The notes beneath the pieces were generated by a model. That model was not told where the DNA came from and did not search any database. It was given only the letters and a program-made list of their open reading frames with translations. The position numbers were made by a program, and so were the translations under genes. Of a stretch of 64,000 bases of DNA, positions 8,694 through 27,699 are shown piece by piece; position 1 is the stretch's first letter, and every line of letters starts with the position of its first letter. The stretch covers positions 1 to 64,000 of the forward strand of contig VGZH01000007.1 in the NCBI GenBank assembly GCA_016872645.1. The letters run 5' to 3'. The DNA comes from Planctomycetota bacterium (GTDB lineage Bacteria; Planctomycetota; Planctomycetia; Planctomycetales; Planctomycetaceae).

Positions 8694-8750
8694 GTTCGTA
8701 GCCCCGCCTTCGGGCGGAAGTTGTGACCGCCTGAAGGCGGAACGACGAAC
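8694..8750. repeat. GTAG palindrome pair upstream of parvulin gene
   Basis: Inverted repeat with arms GTTCGTAGCCCCGCC... and its near-complement ending at 8750. Each arm itself folds: CCGCC-TTCG-GGCGG on the left and CCGCC-TTCA-GGCGG on the right (minus-strand reading). The left arm carries GTAG; the right arm has GTCG at that position. It lies just upstream of the parvulin start. Confidence 0.7.
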
Positions 8751-12201: not shown

Positions 12202-12228
12202 GTAGGATGGGCACTCCTGCCCGTCTAC
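12202..12228. repeat. GTAG palindrome between rarA and mfd
   Basis: 27-base palindrome with GTAG at both 5' ends and core GGGCA-N4-TGCCC. It fills the 34-base gap between the two genes. On the minus strand its TAG (12227-12225) is the rarA stop codon. Confidence 0.8.
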
Positions 12229-18900: not shown

Positions 18901-21900
18901 CTATCTACGCAGCAGGTTCAGCAGGACTTGGTCTTTGAGTTCTCGCGCTCCCGACTCCGCCCTCTTCGCGAGCTGCTCCGCGAGCTCATGCAGCGATTCG
19001 TGACGCGAGCACGCAACCGACAACAGCCAGTCGTCCCACACCCGAGTGCGAGTCGCGGAACTACTCTTGCCGGTTTGCGATTCCCAGAGCGTAATTTGCT
19101 GCCTCACCAACGTCTCGGCAACCGCCGGAACCTTGTTCGCGAGGTGAATCAGTGCCAGCAGAACATGAATCCGGTCACTCGGCCGCTGCTTCATTTGCTC
19201 TTCGACAAACGCATCGAGTTCCGCCAACCGATCCGCCTCGCGAGCCGCCTCGAGCAGCAAGAACGCCGTCGATTTGAGTTCCGTAACCCCTGCCCCCGGA
19301 TCCCCAATCCCTGATCCGGTCAGCATCCGCATCGATTTCACGCCGTCATTCGGCAACGACCACGCGCGCCACAATTCGTACCGTTCTTGAGCCGGTCGGG
19401 TCTTCAGTTTCGCTGCCAGAATCGTCAAAACCGGGCCGGGGTTTTCGTCCGCGTAACGATCCGGCCAGCGCGCGTCCGCCACTTGAGCAAGCAGAGCGAT
19501 CGCCTCCTGAGTCAGCCCGGCCGAGGCGTAGTCAGTCGCAATCGCGAGCAGTTCCAACCGCCGCAGATGCTGGCCGTCCATCGCTCCGGTCGCCGACCAG
19601 GCTTGATCCATGTGGCGTAGGTGCGACGAGATCGTTTCCTTGGCTTTGTCCATCTGCCGCTGATCGAGTTGTTGCTTCGCCAGCCAGCGGCGGAGCTCAG
19701 ACATCGGATGCTCGTCGCGCGGGTAGGCTTTGCTGACCGGTGCGATCCACTGCTCGAAAAGTTTGGCGACTTGCTCACGCCTTTCGGGCAACGTTGTGAG
19801 GAGCAGAACAATCTGCGTGGCGATGCGATTGTTCTGAAGCGCCGGCTTCGACCAGTCGTGCTGTGCGAGCTTCGTCAATTCCGCATCCAGCCGCTGATCG
19901 TCGTTCGTCAGTCTCGTGATTAACAACTGAATCAGCCTCAACGGGAGCACGTTCGTGGCGGTCTTCTCACGCTCGATCAATCGCTGCGCGAGCGTGTCGA
20001 TTCGTTTCTCGGCGACGGCCAGTTCGACAAGTCGCAAAGCGAGGCTCGGCACACGGCGCTCGGCGCGGGCCGCGTGCGCCACAGCGAACACAAACACCTC
20101 GTCCGGCCGATTCGACGGCAGTACACATTCGAGCAACGTCGCGAAGATTGCGTCGGCGGCGACACCCTTCGCTCGCCATTCGGACTCGAGTGTTTCCCAG
20201 GTCACGAGGATGTCTTCGGTGATGTGACTGCTTGCCATGAAGTTGGCGTTGAACAGCGCCGTTGCAGAGATCGCTTCCTGGTCGCTTGTCAGGCCAGTGT
20301 CATTGTCGACTTTTAATTGGAACGGAACCGACTTCGGCCAGTTGATTGTGTCACGGAAGATAGCCAGCGACAGGTCAGACATCTCCGCGTTGAGCGTCAG
20401 CCGGCAGAGATCGCGAGCGCGATGCAGCCGAGTGCTCAGCCAATTGGCGGACCAGACGAATTCCTTGCCCAACATCATCGCCACGGTTTCCTCGGCCGAA
20501 CGAGGCCGCAGGACATCAACCGCCAATCGCGTCCACAACTTGCTGGCGAGATCTTTGTCACCGGCTTTCAACGCCAGTTCACCACGCTCGCGCAGGATTG
20601 CCCATTGGAAGCGCGAGTCCGCATGCAGCGCAGCCGATTCGGTGGCAAGTTCGGCGAGTTCGTGACCGAGCTGTTGATATTCCTTGTGCGCGAGACATTC
20701 TCGCGCGACCAGCCACAATCCGAGTTGCGGATGAAAGCCCGCCGGTGCGGTGCGCGGTGGCTCGGTCTTGAGATGCGACTTCGTGATTTCGACAAGTTGC
20801 GGCAGAGCGACATGGGCATCGTTTGTTTGCGGTGAAAAGAGTTCGGTGAGCGACGCGAGGAGCGCGAGCGACAGATCCGTAGGACGGACACTCGTCTGCG
20901 TCTTGTCTTTGGCATCGTCGGACGGACGGGCAGGAGGCCCCGTCCTGCGTAGCGACTCAGTCCACTTCTTCAACAGGTCTTTGTCCTGAGCGGCTTCTTT
21001 GATCAACAATACGAACGGACTGTCGAGCTGCAAGTTCGTCAGCGAATCGCCGACGACGTGCGTGAGCAGGTCGATGCGAGGCGCGAACCGGACGCCCACG
21101 TCCGGTCGATTAGATGTTCGTTCGGACGTAAGCGTCTGAACTACGATCGCTGGCAGCATCTCCGGCTTGATCGCCGCTCGTGAATTCGCGAAGCGGTGTT
21201 CGAGTTGTTCCAGCCACGTTCCGCCATCGCTGTTGTTCGCGCTGGGGAGTTGCCAGCGTGTGATCATCGCTTGAGCCAGCCGCGCGGCGACGTAGGGTTG
21301 GTCGATCTCGGCCGTGATCTTCGCCGCCTCGACGAACAGCGGGCTGCCAGCTTGCCGAGCCAATTCATCGGGATCGTTCAGCCCTGTCAGCATCCGATTG
21401 ACGATCCGCACTGCCAGTTCCTGCATCGCCGGTTCTTTGCCGAACACGCGGCATTCTTCGAGAGCCAATTCGGGAGTCGTCAATTCGTAGAACTCGGTCG
21501 CGGCGGCGAAATTACCTGCGACGGCGAGTTCGTGACCGACGCCAGTCATCAACACCTGAAAGTTGGCAGTGCGTTCTGAGTTTCCCTGAAACGCTTTGGA
21601 GAAGTCGTCGCGGCTGCGGAGCATCGCCTCGAACAGCGGAATTGCTTTCTGAATTGATCCTTGTCGTCGCAGATGGATCAGCCCCAGCGTCAAATTGCCG
21701 CCGTGTGTCCAATCGGGGTGCGATTTCATCGCTGCGAGCGTGTGAGTCTCTAATTCGTCCAACTTGCCAATCTGCTTTGCAAGCTCGATCACATTGCGAG
21801 TCAGCAGATTAGCGGGCGATCCCGCAGACTTCCTCACGATGTCGATCCCGTACCACGGACCGACGTCCTTGAATGAATCCGGGGGAACGGCCATGTCTCG

Positions 21901-24900
21901 CGCGAGCGGCCACAGCTCTTCTTGATTCCAGACAGAGCCACTCAACATCAGCAACTGCGAGGCCAGCCTTGCGCGGAAGTCAGGCGCTTCGCGGAATGCT
22001 TTCTCGAACAATTGGATGATGAGCCTGGCTCGGATCGGCGGACCTTCCAGACGAAAGACGATGCGACGGAAGAGTTCGATTCGCTGCTGATCGTTCACGG
22101 CCAGCTTCGATTTCAGCACGATGGCCGCCAGTTCATCGACATGGCCGAGTTCCGACAGGATTTGCTCCGCCTCGAACAGCACTTGAGCGGTCGCGTTGGG
22201 CAGCCGTTCGATCGCAAACAAAAAGTGCGGCACCGCAAGCTGCGCCTTTCCGGCCGAGACCAGCGCTCGCGCGAGCGTCAGGCGGAACTGCGGATCGGGG
22301 GCGTCGCTGTCCGCCAGTCGGACGAGCAGTCCTGTTTGTTTTTCCGGAGTTCCAGCCGCTCCATACAACTCTGCCAACTGTCCGAACAATTTCAGCGACT
22401 GCGGCGAACGGTCGAATTGTTGCTCAGCTTGCTCGATGAGCGGGCCCAGTCTCCCCTGTTGCCCCAATACCGCGAGTGCCTTCGTGCGCGCAGTCGAGGT
22501 CGTTGTGATCACCCGCGCCTGCTGCCCGCCGCCGAACGTCGATTGTTGCACGCTGCCGATGAGCGTGTTGGCCGGCGACGTCCGTCGAATGATTTGCTCA
22601 GCAATCTGGCACGCCTCGTCCATCTGCTTGGCGTCGATCCGTTCCTGCATCGCCTGTTGCAGCACCGCGAGGTTGTTCCCCGCTCGCTGGGGCAACCGCT
22701 GCCGAATCGCCTCGGCGTGCTCATGCAGACCCAGGCCCGACAACGTGCTCGCGAGTTGCAGCTCATCGGCCGGCTCCAGCTTCATGCCGAACAATCGCTC
22801 GGCCGCCAACTGCAAGCGTTCCGTGCGGCGAAGCTTGCCCGCTAACTGAACGGCTCGCTGCTCAATCTCTTTGAGTTGCTGGCTGTCCTTGGTCTCGATG
22901 CGATCCAACAGGTGGAGGGCGACATCAAGCTGCTCGTGCTGATGGTGTGAGACGACGACGGCGATTTGCAGCGCCGGGTTGTGCGACGCGGCGTCGAAAA
23001 GTTCGCGCATCTCGGCAAGCGCCGGATCGAACTGCTCATCCCAGACACGCACGCACGCGACCGCTAGCCGAGCGAGGTATCGGCGACGCGATCCCTCGGG
23101 CGACGAGTCCCGCTCACGCTCCAGAAACTTGAGCAGGCTCGAGGACCAATTCTGTTGTTTCGCCGACTCAAACGTCTGATACATCAATCCCATCACCGCC
23201 GCTTCCACGGACGAGTCCTGTGGTGGGAAGCTAAGCGTCACCGGCTTGACGCCGCTCGGTTTCCAGATCTGCATTTGATTTGCGACAGCAGGGAATGCCC
23301 CGACTTGCCCCTGCGAATCGACGAGGTCCGCGAATTCCGTCAGGACCAGACTCAAGAGTTTCAGAGCACCGGGCAACTCGTCGGTGCCTTGCTGCAATCG
23401 CTCGCCGATCGTGCTGTCACGGACGATCTGGCTTTGCAGGACATACGGAACCCAACGAACCGCTTGCGTCGGCTCGACACGCGCGCCGCGAATTGCTGCC
23501 GACTCCTTATAAGCGGCGGCGTACTTTGGCAGGAGCCGGAGCACCGCGTCGAACTCACCGTTCACAGAAGTGCGGAACAACAGCCACGAGAACTCGTCGG
23601 TGGTCGTCGCGTTCCGTTCGTAATCGGCCAAGAGCGCGGCCGCTTCTTTAACTTTGCCGGCACGAATCAACTCCTCACCGAAGTGATCGACCAGCGGGCG
23701 CGGCTCTGCGACACGCAGTTCGGGATGTTGCTGGAGCCGGGCATAGGCATCACGCATCGACGCGAGGCTTGATTCGCTGATCGGGTCTTTGCCACGCAAG
23801 GTTTCCCAAGCGATCACGCTCGGTGGGTTCGGTCGGCCCTGCATCGCACCCTTGAATACGAGCCAATGCGCGAGCGGATCATCGGGGACGTCGGCCGTAA
23901 GTCGCTTTGCAGTGTCTTCCAGTGCCGTCGATGAGTCTGCCAACATCGCCGAATAGACCGCGTCCCAGCCACCACGTGGCCCATCGGTACGGTACGGTCT
24001 TTGAAAGAGCACCAACACACGCGCTTGTCCGAAATCCGCCGGAGCCAGCATTGTGGTCCACACGATCAACGCCGTGTTTGACAGTTTCGTGGGAATTGCA
24101 ATTCGACTTGGTATTGGCGAAGGACTGACGCTCCGCGCGGAACTTCGAGCTGTTGGCGATCCGAAGGCGACAAGCTGCTCGATGAGTTTAGTTCTCGCTT
24201 TGAGCGCTGCGAATCGAGAACCCAGCTTCTGACTCGTCGCGGCAACCAATGCTGACGATGTCCCACTGCTGGGTGTCTCATCTGGCAGTCTCAACTGCAT
24301 GAGAGCATCGAATCGCGAGAACGCTTCGTCGTTGCGTCCTTCTGCTTGAAGGATCATTCCCGATCGAAACAGAAACTCCCACGCGTCTGGCCGATCCTGA
24401 ATCCAGCGTTCGCTCACCGCGAGAGTTTGCTTGAGTTCTCCGTTTGCCAGCAGCCGGTCGATTTCCTTGAGCGCCTTGGCAGGGTCACGTTCGGAATCGA
24501 GCCAGCGGGTGGCGAGTTTCTCGGCATCCGAGTCGCGGCCGGCTCGGCGAAGCAACACGACGAGATGCTCGTCCGCTTCGCGCTTGCGAGTCACTTCAGC
24601 CAGTCTCTGCTGATGTGCGATCGCAGCTTCCAAGTCACCGGCGGTCTCGCACAATGAGACCATCCGAGCCAGCAACGCCGCATCTCGTGGAGCTTGCGGC
24701 AGCCATCGCTCCAACTCACGCCGAGCCTGCTGCGTGTCCCCCGCCTGCTCGTGAACCTGCACCAACGCCAGCGATGCATCGCGACGCAGCTTCGGCTCCG
24801 CTCGATAACGCTCCAACCGCTGCACCAGCTTCGTGAACTCGCCGGGAAAGACGGATAACTCGGCCAGCTTGCGGATGACTTCGATGCGATCGTCGGACTT

Positions 24901-27348
24901 CGCGGTTTGCTCGAAGACCCGCCAGAGAATTTCGCGAGCCTCGTCGGTTTGAGTGCGGAGTGTGGAGTGCGGAGTGCGGATTTGGGATTTGCTTTCATTC
25001 CGCATTCCGAACTCCGCACTCCGCAATCCATCCTCCATTAATCTCTCAACCAGCTTCAATGCCAATCGTTTGTCCGCTCCATTCTGACGCGACGCTCGCC
25101 GCAGAATCTGCAGCGCCTCGGCGTTTTGTCCGTATCGCAAACAAACATCGACAACGAATTCGGCGCTCTCTGGATTCCCCGGAGCGGCCGCGAGCAATTC
25201 TCGCCCCGCCTTCAACGCTTTCTCTTTGCGGCCAAGCTTCTGTTCGAGTTCCGCAATTGCGCGCAGGGCATCAATCCGAAACCGCCGATCAAGCTTCCAC
25301 AACCGTTCGTAAAGCTCGACCGCCGAGAGCCACTGGCTGTCGAGTGTCAGCATCTTCGCCGCCGCTTGGAGGAAGAGACCGTTACGCGGGGCGAGTTCGA
25401 CAGCTTTCCTCGCGGCAACGGTTGCTTCGCGCAGCTTGTCAGCAGCTTCGAGGTACTTGGCGAGACGGAAAAAATCATTGGATGGTGACGATGCAGAAAA
25501 AGGACTACGGCTTTCGACGGGCTCTGCGTCTCTGCGTCTCTGCGTCTGTGAGTTCAATACCTCAATCCGTTCCGTCAGCAACTCCGATTCGGTAAGCACT
25601 TTGACCTCGAACTGCACCACACGGTCAAACGTCTCCGGCGTGTCGGCGAGCGCGGCAGCTTCGGCCAGCGCGGACATCGCCGAATCAAACTGCTTCCACT
25701 TGCGACGTAATTCGGCTTGTTGAAAGCGGAGTTCCAGCGACTTGCGATCCAGTTCGCACGCCGCATCAATTGTCGTGAGCGTCTCGTCGCGATATCCGAA
25801 CCGAGACAGCACCTCGGCGAGTTGTGCGAGGTTGTTGGCATTGCGTCGCGGGGCCTCAGCCATCGAACGCCAGGCCGCCAGCGATTCGTTCTTCTTGCCG
25901 GCCGAGTCCAGAACTTCGCCGAGTTGTTCCCGATGCGTAAGGGCTTCCGGTTCCAATTCAATCGCTTTGCGTAACAACTCCACCGCGTCGTTGAGTAGCG
26001 ACTTATCGGCCGACGCCATCAACCCCGCAACCTGTGCCGCAACGACGGCATCCTTCGGCTTGGCATCGACGAGCTTTCGCCAGACGGCTGCGGCACGCTT
26101 GGCAACATCGGCAGTCCGGGCGGGATCAGCTCCCGGACTTTTTGAGTCATTGCTGTTTGACGTAGTCGAGGGGCTGACGCCCACCCGCTCGCCGGATTTC
26201 AGAATCAAGAACCCCCAATCGCGGATGTAGTCGGGATTGTTTGGAGCGAGGCGATCGAGTTCCTCGTATTGCGAGAGCACTTCCGCGAACTGTTGGTCTG
26301 ACTGCAACAGTTCGATCAACTCCAGCCGCAGTTCGACGGAAGTCGGCGCGAGTTTGATGCCAGCGTCCAATCGCGTCCGCGCATCCTTGCGGCGATCTTG
26401 TGAGACCAACGCCCGCGACAACCGCACCACCGCATCGAGATCGTCCGGTTGCTTCACCAACCGCTCTTCGTAGTGCTTGATAAGTCCTGCCGCATCGTCC
26501 TTCGCGAGGAATGCCTCTTCGACGCGCCGCCGAGTTTCGCGAAACAGCCAATGGTCCTGCTTGAGCCCACCCAGCAACCGATCGGCCTCGGCCAGCGCCT
26601 TCTCGAACTGGCCGAGCTTCAACCGCAGATCAACTGCTTCGAGTTCAAACTCCGACCGGCGATACAAATCTTTGGTTGCGCGTGCCAACGCTTCAAAACG
26701 TGGCAACGCCGCTTCCCAATGACCGTCGTCGAGCAACGTCTTGGCGATCAACTCTGGCACACGCGGATCGTTCGGGACAAGTTTTTCGAGCCGCGTCCAA
26801 ACTTCAATCACCTGGTCGCCGGGAGCCAGTCGTTGCTGCACTCGGCCCAGCGTTTGAAAAACGTCGAGCAGATCCGTGGGAGCCGGCTTCCGCTGAACCG
26901 CGCGTTCGAGGGCCACCGCCGCATCGGCCCAGCGGTTGAGCGTCATCAAATTCTGGCCCAACGAAAACGACGCGATAGCGCTCTTGGGCAACAATTCTTC
27001 GGCGCGCTCAAACGCTGTCTGAGCCTCTTCCGCATCCCCTTGCGAAGACTCGATGAGGCCCACGACGAACCAAGCTCGGCCGGCATCCTCGAACTCGGTG
27101 GCTTCGGCTTTCTCTCGCAACCGAATGATCAATTCATCGAGTGACTCGTGGTCGAGATGAAACTCAACGACTTTGTCGAGTGCCGTTCCCCTGCGTGGAT
27201 TCCGTTCCAGCACAAACAGAAACCGTTCGGCCGACTTTCGCGCCTCCGCTTCGGCTTCGTCCTCGTTTTGCGAAAACGTCGGTCGCGCGACGAAGAGGCA
27301 CACGCTGCTCACAAGGGCGAGGGCAATCGCAAACAGGCGGGTATTCAA
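18901..27348 (-). CDS. Giant exported TPR protein (2815 aa)
   Basis: Secreted or periplasmic superhelical protein made almost entirely of tetratricopeptide-like repeats. The start is a TTG at 27348, with GGAG about nine bases upstream; it gives a clean signal peptide (MNTRLFAIALALVSS...) that no nearby ATG would. TPR units are clearest at the N-terminus (GRAWFVVGLIESSQGDAEEA, SIASFSLGQNLMTLNRWADA) and continue with degenerate helical pairs to the C-terminus. No catalytic domain is visible. At least four stretches match dispersed repeats rather than TPR sequence: near 20880-20950, 21119-21144, 24950-25030 and 25484-25560, plus a probable one near 26108-26190. It probably acts as a scaffold. 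No partner gene is adjacent. Confidence 0.85.
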   Translation of the reverse strand: MNTRLFAIALALVSSVCLFVARPTFSQNEDEAEAEARKSAERFLFVLERNPRRGTALDKVVEFHLDHESLDELIIRLREKAEATEFEDAGRAWFVVGLIESSQGDAEEAQTAFERAEELLPKSAIASFSLGQNLMTLNRWADAAVALERAVQRKPAPTDLLDVFQTLGRVQQRLAPGDQVIEVWTRLEKLVPNDPRVPELIAKTLLDDGHWEAALPRFEALARATKDLYRRSEFELEAVDLRLKLGQFEKALAEADRLLGGLKQDHWLFRETRRRVEEAFLAKDDAAGLIKHYEERLVKQPDDLDAVVRLSRALVSQDRRKDARTRLDAGIKLAPTSVELRLELIELLQSDQQFAEVLSQYEELDRLAPNNPDYIRDWGFLILKSGERVGVSPSTTSNSNDSKSPGADPARTADVAKRAAAVWRKLVDAKPKDAVVAAQVAGLMASADKSLLNDAVELLRKAIELEPEALTHREQLGEVLDSAGKKNESLAAWRSMAEAPRRNANNLAQLAEVLSRFGYRDETLTTIDAACELDRKSLELRFQQAELRRKWKQFDSAMSALAEAAALADTPETFDRVVQFEVKVLTESELLTERIEVLNSQTQRRRDAEPVESRSPFSASSPSNDFFRLAKYLEAADKLREATVAARKAVELAPRNGLFLQAAAKMLTLDSQWLSAVELYERLWKLDRRFRIDALRAIAELEQKLGRKEKALKAGRELLAAAPGNPESAEFVVDVCLRYGQNAEALQILRRASRQNGADKRLALKLVERLMEDGLRSAEFGMRNESKSQIRTPHSTLRTQTDEAREILWRVFEQTAKSDDRIEVIRKLAELSVFPGEFTKLVQRLERYRAEPKLRRDASLALVQVHEQAGDTQQARRELERWLPQAPRDAALLARMVSLCETAGDLEAAIAHQQRLAEVTRKREADEHLVVLLRRAGRDSDAEKLATRWLDSERDPAKALKEIDRLLANGELKQTLAVSERWIQDRPDAWEFLFRSGMILQAEGRNDEAFSRFDALMQLRLPDETPSSGTSSALVAATSQKLGSRFAALKARTKLIEQLVAFGSPTARSSARSVSPSPIPSRIAIPTKLSNTALIVWTTMLAPADFGQARVLVLFQRPYRTDGPRGGWDAVYSAMLADSSTALEDTAKRLTADVPDDPLAHWLVFKGAMQGRPNPPSVIAWETLRGKDPISESSLASMRDAYARLQQHPELRVAEPRPLVDHFGEELIRAGKVKEAAALLADYERNATTTDEFSWLLFRTSVNGEFDAVLRLLPKYAAAYKESAAIRGARVEPTQAVRWVPYVLQSQIVRDSTIGERLQQGTDELPGALKLLSLVLTEFADLVDSQGQVGAFPAVANQMQIWKPSGVKPVTLSFPPQDSSVEAAVMGLMYQTFESAKQQNWSSSLLKFLERERDSSPEGSRRRYLARLAVACVRVWDEQFDPALAEMRELFDAASHNPALQIAVVVSHHQHEQLDVALHLLDRIETKDSQQLKEIEQRAVQLAGKLRRTERLQLAAERLFGMKLEPADELQLASTLSGLGLHEHAEAIRQRLPQRAGNNLAVLQQAMQERIDAKQMDEACQIAEQIIRRTSPANTLIGSVQQSTFGGGQQARVITTTSTARTKALAVLGQQGRLGPLIEQAEQQFDRSPQSLKLFGQLAELYGAAGTPEKQTGLLVRLADSDAPDPQFRLTLARALVSAGKAQLAVPHFLFAIERLPNATAQVLFEAEQILSELGHVDELAAIVLKSKLAVNDQQRIELFRRIVFRLEGPPIRARLIIQLFEKAFREAPDFRARLASQLLMLSGSVWNQEELWPLARDMAVPPDSFKDVGPWYGIDIVRKSAGSPANLLTRNVIELAKQIGKLDELETHTLAAMKSHPDWTHGGNLTLGLIHLRRQGSIQKAIPLFEAMLRSRDDFSKAFQGNSERTANFQVLMTGVGHELAVAGNFAAATEFYELTTPELALEECRVFGKEPAMQELAVRIVNRMLTGLNDPDELARQAGSPLFVEAAKITAEIDQPYVAARLAQAMITRWQLPSANNSDGGTWLEQLEHRFANSRAAIKPEMLPAIVVQTLTSERTSNRPDVGVRFAPRIDLLTHVVGDSLTNLQLDSPFVLLIKEAAQDKDLLKKWTESLRRTGPPARPSDDAKDKTQTSVRPTDLSLALLASLTELFSPQTNDAHVALPQLVEITKSHLKTEPPRTAPAGFHPQLGLWLVARECLAHKEYQQLGHELAELATESAALHADSRFQWAILRERGELALKAGDKDLASKLWTRLAVDVLRPRSAEETVAMMLGKEFVWSANWLSTRLHRARDLCRLTLNAEMSDLSLAIFRDTINWPKSVPFQLKVDNDTGLTSDQEAISATALFNANFMASSHITEDILVTWETLESEWRAKGVAADAIFATLLECVLPSNRPDEVFVFAVAHAARAERRVPSLALRLVELAVAEKRIDTLAQRLIEREKTATNVLPLRLIQLLITRLTNDDQRLDAELTKLAQHDWSKPALQNNRIATQIVLLLTTLPERREQVAKLFEQWIAPVSKAYPRDEHPMSELRRWLAKQQLDQRQMDKAKETISSHLRHMDQAWSATGAMDGQHLRRLELLAIATDYASAGLTQEAIALLAQVADARWPDRYADENPGPVLTILAAKLKTRPAQERYELWRAWSLPNDGVKSMRMLTGSGIGDPGAGVTELKSTAFLLLEAAREADRLAELDAFVEEQMKQRPSDRIHVLLALIHLANKVPAVAETLVRQQITLWESQTGKSSSATRTRVWDDWLLSVACSRHESLHELAEQLAKRAESGARELKDQVLLNLLRR
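20878..20951. repeat. Inverted palindrome pair inside TPR gene
   Basis: On the plus strand GTAGGACG-N6-CGTC starts near 20879. On the minus strand GCAGGACGGGG...CCCGTCC (7-bp stem) ends near 20950. The pair is inverted, the second copy with GCAG in place of GTAG. It is read in frame by the TPR gene as TGPPARPSDDAKDKTQTS. Confidence 0.65.
21119..21144 (-). repeat. GTAG palindrome inside TPR gene
   Basis: Minus-strand GTAG followed by TTCAGACG-CTTA-CGTCCGAA, a stem with one mismatch. A separate perfect CCGGACG-N4-CGTCCGG hairpin lies about 30 bases to the left. The segment is translated as VVQTLTSERTS. Confidence 0.6.
24951..25030. repeat. Palindromic repeat inside TPR gene
   Basis: Arms TGGAGTGCGGAGTGCGGA (24963-24980) and GCACTCCGC-type complement (about 25004-25026), with the loop TTTGGGATTTGCTTTC. 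It is translated in frame as LRSAEFGMRNESKSQ and following residues, which break a TPR helix. It belongs to a different repeat family from the GTAG elements. Confidence 0.7.
25484..25560. repeat. CTGCGTCT tandem repeat segment inside TPR gene
   Basis: Three tandem copies of TCTGCGTC (25521-25545) within a segment read as TQRRRDAEPVESRSPFSASS. The peptide is polar and unlike the surrounding helices. It resembles the CGCAGAGACGCAAAG core seen in the intergenic repeat at 56617-56740. Confidence 0.55.
26108..26190. repeat. Probable repeat segment inside TPR gene
   Basis: Perfect short palindrome AGTCCGGG-N11-CCCGGACT at 26113-26139, followed by a GACGCCCACCCGCTCGCCGG tract. It is translated as GVSPSTTSNSNDSKSPGADP, a low-complexity linker between TPR helices. 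Weaker than the other copies. Confidence 0.45.
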
Positions 27349-27699
27349 GGCGGGAGTCTCCGACGCTGACCGTTCGTCGCAACGAGTCTATCGCGAGCCA
27401 AGATGACCAGCCAGCAGCAGTTATGAGGCTTCCGTGATCGAAGTTTGCTGGTGTTCGGCACGCAGTCTGGGGCAAAACCGCCACTCGACCACTCCGCCGA
27501 CAACCGTTAGCATCCCCGCCCCTCGCATGACCCACCGAGTTGACTTTCGCGCACCGGGCCTGTCCCGGTGGTTTCCTGGCTTCTGCACTACTTGCTGTCG
27601 GGTGGTCGATCGCAAGCGACTTATGATCCCGAAGTAGCGCAAAAGCCAACGAGCCACCGGGACAAGCCCGGTGGGGTGGCACTGTTGGTTAAAGGTTTC
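27349..27699. repeat. Repeat-filled gap upstream of lepA
   Basis: About 350 bases between divergent genes. It contains two inverted copies of a self-palindromic motif, CACCGGGCCTGTCCCGGTGG at about 27552 and CCACCGGGACAAGCCCGGTG at about 27653. No gene was seen; the lepA promoter should be here. Confidence 0.65.

Follow-up and report, generated by a model that had tools for sequence, protein, structure and literature searches.

The gene at positions 18901–27348 (minus strand) of the window, by which we mean the whole 64,000-nucleotide stretch of planctomycete DNA analysed here, encodes a giant TPR protein (P0001, 2815 aa). It was found that dispersed palindromic elements occupy a small number of fixed sites within its reading frame, that these elements are present in some congeneric species and absent from others, and that a given site holds different element families in different species. 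The same genome carries a RAYT gene flanked by REPs. We consider the following explanation very probable. About seven inter-helix loops of the TPR solenoid would have received short palindromic, non-autonomous elements again and again, chiefly REP doublets (GTAG-tagged and related families) along with arrays of period 7 or 8. The GTAG-family copies would most likely have been moved by RAYT-type (Y1 HUH) transposases, and selection would remove insertions that shift the frame or bring in a stop codon, so that the in-frame, stop-free ones survive and, once translated, form flexible loops that are rich in Ser/Thr/Arg/Pro and whose constraint is relaxed. With time, the inserts would decay, other families would nest in them or take their place, and recombination would exchange them between related lineages.

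The TPR Gene and Its Orthologues

The interval 18901–27348 is a real open frame of 2815 codons, with a TTG start codon and a signal-peptide-like N terminus. Several TPR families of Pfam matched the encoded protein. An AlphaFold2 model of residues 320 to 860, built with ten orthologues, consisted of a run of helix pairs, and the best PDB matches of this model were TPR superhelices, among them those of O-GlcNAc transferase (OGT) and SPINDLY. The protein thus combines TPR profiles with a predicted superhelical fold, as in a TPR solenoid.

The comparison covered 12 orthologues, namely that of the window's own genome (G000) and those of 11 congeneric Planctomycetota, the relatives being fragmented planctomycete MAGs. 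The gene was present in the 11 congeneric genomes at 48–85% identity, and its frame was open except at contig breaks.

Inserts in the Reading Frame of the TPR Gene

The first-pass annotation of this DNA had pointed out four segments of dispersed-repeat type and a probable fifth within the frame, none interrupted by a stop codon. This observation is confirmed: all five (20878–20951, 21119–21144, 24951–25030, 25484–25560 and 26108–26190) lie on indel sites, here named S1 to S5, which vary in length and are flanked by well-conserved blocks in the alignment of the 12 orthologues. On the minus strand of G000, loop S1 (20878–20952, residues 2133–2157) holds a decayed doublet of the GTAGGAYGGGCACTC family, and loop S2 (about 21073–21144, residues 2069–2092) a doublet of the GTAGTYCGGACGCC family with one arm at 21123–21144. 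The S2 insert is longer than the segment first marked. Loop S3 (24946–25032, residues about 773–801) consists of GAGTGCG period-7 arrays arranged as inverted arms of 35 nt, and loop S4 (25477–25557, residues about 598–624) of a one-armed period-8 array of CTCTGCGT. The probable fifth segment proved to be element-derived as well, loop S5 (26098–26196, residues about 385–417) being a decayed palindromic doublet of the GGCGAGCGGG..CGTCAGCCCC family. In an inverted-repeat scan, S3 was the sole strong and intact palindrome left in the G000 gene, the doublets of S1, S2 and S5 having decayed.

The arms of S1 and S2 both carry GTAG at the foot of a palindromic stem (CGTAGGACGG.. in S1 and GTAGTTCAGACG.. 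in S2), in line with the earlier assignment of two segments to GTAG elements, and each is from a GTAG family of its own. This stem is lacking in the arrays of S3 and S4, which were therefore not filed under the GTAG REP superfamily. Freedom from stop codons is by itself weak evidence in this context, because the GAGTGCG and CTCTGCGT units are open in six frames by arithmetic; doublets of the S1 family were mostly open in two of the three frames on the strand tested.

Beyond the five segments there are at least two more sites, X1664 (22333–22365, minus strand, residues about 1662–1672) and X2426 (20047–20079, minus strand, residues about 2424–2434), which are empty in G000 and filled in relatives. 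A short variable loop, X2690 (19279–19308, minus strand, residues about 2681–2690), contains AAATCTC period-7 arrays in relatives and at most a weak remnant in G000.

Palindromic Doublets and Their Dispersal in the Genus

When read in the coding orientation, nearly every filled loop of the 12 orthologues is a pair of inverted arms around a short spacer. Palindrome scores were mostly 15–41, compared to codon-shuffle maxima of about 7–13 for most filled loops. An inverted-repeat scan that was blind to the sites found 45 doublets in the 12 orthologues, 44 of them at seven positions (S5, near residues 385–417; S4, 601–624; S3, 774–801; X1664; S2, 2068–2092; S1, 2134–2157; and X2426, 2426–2434) and one elsewhere, at residues 2220–2228 of G008. 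No doublet was obtained from codon-shuffled controls of the 12 orthologues by the same scan. The 45 doublets have the make-up of a REPIN or REP-doublet unit, that is, two inverted REPs around a short spacer.

All five arm families tested were dispersed across the genomes of the genus. The S1 arm (GTAGGAYGGGCACTCYTGCCCGTC), searched with up to 3 mismatches, had 74 matches in G000 and 57–264 per genome in the congeners, compared to 0 matches in G000 and 0–2 across genomes for the reversed control. The S2 arm had 11 matches in G000, one of which is 21123–21144 itself with 2 mismatches, and 0–191 per genome, with the highest number in G006; the family common to the S4 and X1664 sites had 21–352 per genome, and reversed controls were near 0 for both. 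Numbers per genome were 0–79 for the GGCGAGC..CGTNAGCCCCC family and 6–93 for the GTAGTTCCGCCTTCAGGCGG family. The S1 and S2 arms thus show the high dispersed copy number in both orientations expected of GTAG REPs. In the genomes, matches in plus and minus orientation were often paired a few tens of bases apart, which indicates that the unit is the doublet.

The S3 heptamer had up to 72 matches (in G007), and the S4 octamer was rare across the whole genus. The reversed control for CTCTGCGT was invalid, as reversing the unit yields one of its own cyclic permutations. The S3, S4 and S5 families have a low copy number in G000, and their dispersed nature therefore rests partly on the relatives; when 12-mers were counted de novo in 464 kb of G000, these families were not recovered. 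Elsewhere in the window, at 12202–12225 and 8725–8746, there are additional copies of the S1-family arm and the GTAGTTCCGCC family.

Presence, Absence and Turnover at Fixed Sites

The S1 family is missing at S1 in G001, G008, G011, G004 and G005, the site being short or empty in these, and G003 has a different family there. S3 is empty in G001 and G008, X1664 and X2426 are likewise empty in some species, and S4 and S5 are filled in all 12 congeners. A comparison of the S3–S5 loops with nine homologues from other genera and families found these loops to be short, with both flanking helices aligned; S3, S4 and S5 are therefore insertions gained within the genus. As judged from the alignments, S1 is a matter of presence or absence among congeners and none of S1–S5 is a conserved helix. 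The prospect raised beforehand, that orthologues would share the segments as ancestral TPR helices, thus fails, and the segments appear instead as insertions in inter-helix loops.

Similarity clustering of the 62 filled loops in the 12 orthologues gave about 25 families, a threshold-dependent number (24 or 25 clusters at two thresholds) obtained by average linkage, single linkage having been rejected because it chained unrelated families. There were eight families at S4, six at S5, five at S3, at least four at X1664, four at X2426, three at S2 and two at S1. Several families recur at two or more sites of the gene: the GTAGTYCGGACGCC family of S2 is also found at X2426 in G002 and G010, and the GGTCTCCCGACC family is present at both S5 and X2426 of G005. 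The closest pair of genomes, G000 and G007 (85% identity), have a family in common at only one of the seven sites, S1. Sister species thus differ in the families that fill a given loop, so that older content appears to have been replaced or erased. The gene is therefore a record that has been written over, and the earlier suggestion that it passively records past element activity does not stand.

In S1 of G002 and G009, one arm tip is swapped for another palindrome, and a nested doublet is present at S4 of G005. Such nesting suggests that new elements also enter resident ones. It is conceivable, although we put this forward tentatively and think it rather doubtful, that a filled loop is a self-perpetuating landing site, with new REP doublets preferentially entering or replacing resident hairpins. 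If so, the sequence of these loops across the genus would be set by the turnover of mobile DNA and not by point mutation.

Trees of different blocks of the TPR gene disagree, and therefore no single tree can carry all the events; some of the alleles are probably spread by recombination between lineages. Residues 986–1480 (window 22909–24393) were far more divergent among congeners than the remainder of the protein. This divergence and the conflict between block trees point to intragenic recombination.

Predicted Loop Structure, Constraint and Other Host Genes

In the AlphaFold2 prediction, S5, S3, S2 and S1 are in coil (pLDDT about 29–45) between more confident helices, whereas the surroundings of S4 are of low confidence overall. 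The pooled pN/pS was 0.48 in shared inserts and 0.21 in the flanks, with a downward bias on the insert value, since a few conserved codons of the flanks fall within the insert windows. Constraint on the inserts is thus relaxed yet present, and the inserts may be nearly neutral.

Indels of at least 6 aa numbered 84 in 22,138 aligned aa of the TPR protein and 0 in 6,346 aligned aa of neighbouring genes; part of this contrast is expected, as the neighbours are better conserved (about 86% compared to 73% identity) and were aligned locally.

The first-pass annotation had proposed that long repetitive solenoids may tolerate such insertions. A purine nucleoside phosphorylase of the same genomes (PF01048; orthologues at L073:1158-2129, L094:1039-2166 and L114-L126) also has such a loop, just after its conserved NLMG motif. 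The loop is filled by an S1-family doublet in several genomes, G007 and G003 among them, and by a different one in G010 and G006; in G003 a second doublet is nested in the first. As the pattern is alike, the effect is not specific to solenoids. A PSD1/PSCyt2 protein and an RTX-repeat protein contain copies as well. Among 18 free doublets that were sampled, only 4 had a length divisible by three, and it is on this basis that selection for frame would be a step in the process.

RAYT Genes and Probable Mobilisation

A profile search found a single RAYT gene in G000 (NF047646, 187 bits relative to a cut-off of 80). The gene, on contig C144 (L112:1353-2140), is intact and is flanked on both sides by inverted GTAG doublets of GTAGGGTCGGCTCCCGCC, as in a REPtron; this flanking REP family differs from those inside the TPR gene. 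Y1_Tnp genes were found in 11 of the 12 genomes, whereas no Y1 transposase was detected in G011, although G011 has REPs. The number of intact doublets correlated with the number of RAYT genes (rho 0.68), but the partial correlation after genome size was 0.13, and the relationship was discarded as evidence of activity because it vanishes once genome size is allowed for. No mobiliser is known for the period-7/8 arrays, for which local slippage is a possible origin.

Alternative Explanations

S1–S5 might be ancestral low-complexity linkers that drift in length and sequence and resemble repeats by chance; in favour, S4 and S5 are filled in 12 of 12 congeners, so that a linker of some kind is never lacking at these two sites. 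Against this, the families to which the arms belong have tens to hundreds of copies in the genomes, with reversed controls near zero, the loops contain strong palindromes, and S1 and S3 are absent from some congeners and S3–S5 short in other genera; we hold drifting linkers to be highly improbable. Local replication slippage, together with template switching at hairpins, might instead have produced the inserts without transposition. The arrays at S3, S4 and X2690 are indeed slippage-prone, and the swapped arm tip at S1 of G002 and G009 would fit such a process, but members of one family are found at different positions in the gene as well as at many places in the genomes, in both orientations, and we give slippage as the general source only a small chance.

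The elements could also be placed or kept for the function of the loops, be it as spacers, through mRNA hairpin effects or as selected surface variation, with turnover that is adaptive. The filling of S4 and S5 in every congener, by six to eight families, and the pN/pS below 1 of the inserts agree with this; S1, S3, X1664 and X2426 nevertheless lack an element in some species, the inserts are less constrained than the flanks, and the families are unrelated in sequence, such that adaptive turnover seems unlikely to us. Ribosome bypassing is described for mitochondrial byp elements, and the coding strand of the TPR gene contains very stable hairpins, which might thus be skipped in translation, leaving the loops out of the protein. 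However, all loops keep the frame and lack stop codons in the orthologues, which bypassing would not need, and few free doublets (the 4 of 18 given above) have a length divisible by three; bypassing has next to no probability in our estimation. Recurrent insertion of dispersed elements into translated loops remains the preferred explanation, and the earlier interpretation of the gene is, overall, partly supported.

Relation to Known Systems

Intragenic REPs are a kind already known. The portions of PMC3733652 considered here describe REPs that lie within reading frames, usually in dimers or groups, encode 20–30 residues and are suggested to act as flexible linkers or loops, and list Planctomycetes among GTAG carriers; they also contain a single example, from recB of two Xanthomonas species, in which different REPs are found at about the same site. 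Like the inserts of the TPR gene, the intragenic GTAG/CGTC dimers of that study are palindromic dimers in reading frames, including those of PVC bacteria (PMC3733652). The TPR gene differs, as far as those portions go, in having seven sites with up to eight families per site in 12 congeners, in the predicted loop positions and copy counts given for it, and in the non-GTAG and period-7/8 families that fill the same sites. The RPE of Rickettsia, cited in the same source as in-frame palindromic insertions, are likewise found in protein genes and tolerated as extra peptide (PMC3733652); compared by reading-frame occupation only, the present elements are in a different phylum, with many families per loop and with RAYT genes present. 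The RAYT of G000 with its inverted GTAG doublets resembles the REPtron, a RAYT with flanking REPs (PMC2817692, PMC3733652), except that its flanking family is absent from the TPR gene, and mobilisation of the families within the gene by a RAYT is what we infer.

What is new, relative to the parts of these sources considered, is how extensive the turnover at fixed loops is (12 species and about 25 families at seven sites of one gene), as well as the mixture of REPs with heptamer and octamer arrays at the same positions, of which no instance was found in the literature searched. Scattered reports of intragenic REPs thereby become a comparative system with the same codon positions, 12 species and dozens of occupancies, which allows tests of where REP doublets land, whether filled sites attract more of them, the pace of their turnover and the way in which mobile DNA provides proteins with new loops. 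A warning also follows: a hypervariable loop of a planctomycete protein can be mobile DNA of recent arrival and not diverged homologous sequence.

REPINs are REP doublets that form a mobile unit and are largely extragenic. The TPR gene likewise holds two inverted REPs per unit, separated by a short spacer, and its doublets lie inside the reading frame. Just upstream of the TPR gene (window 27552–27673) there is a 42-nt inverted repeat with a 38-nt spacer, which resembles a REP doublet.
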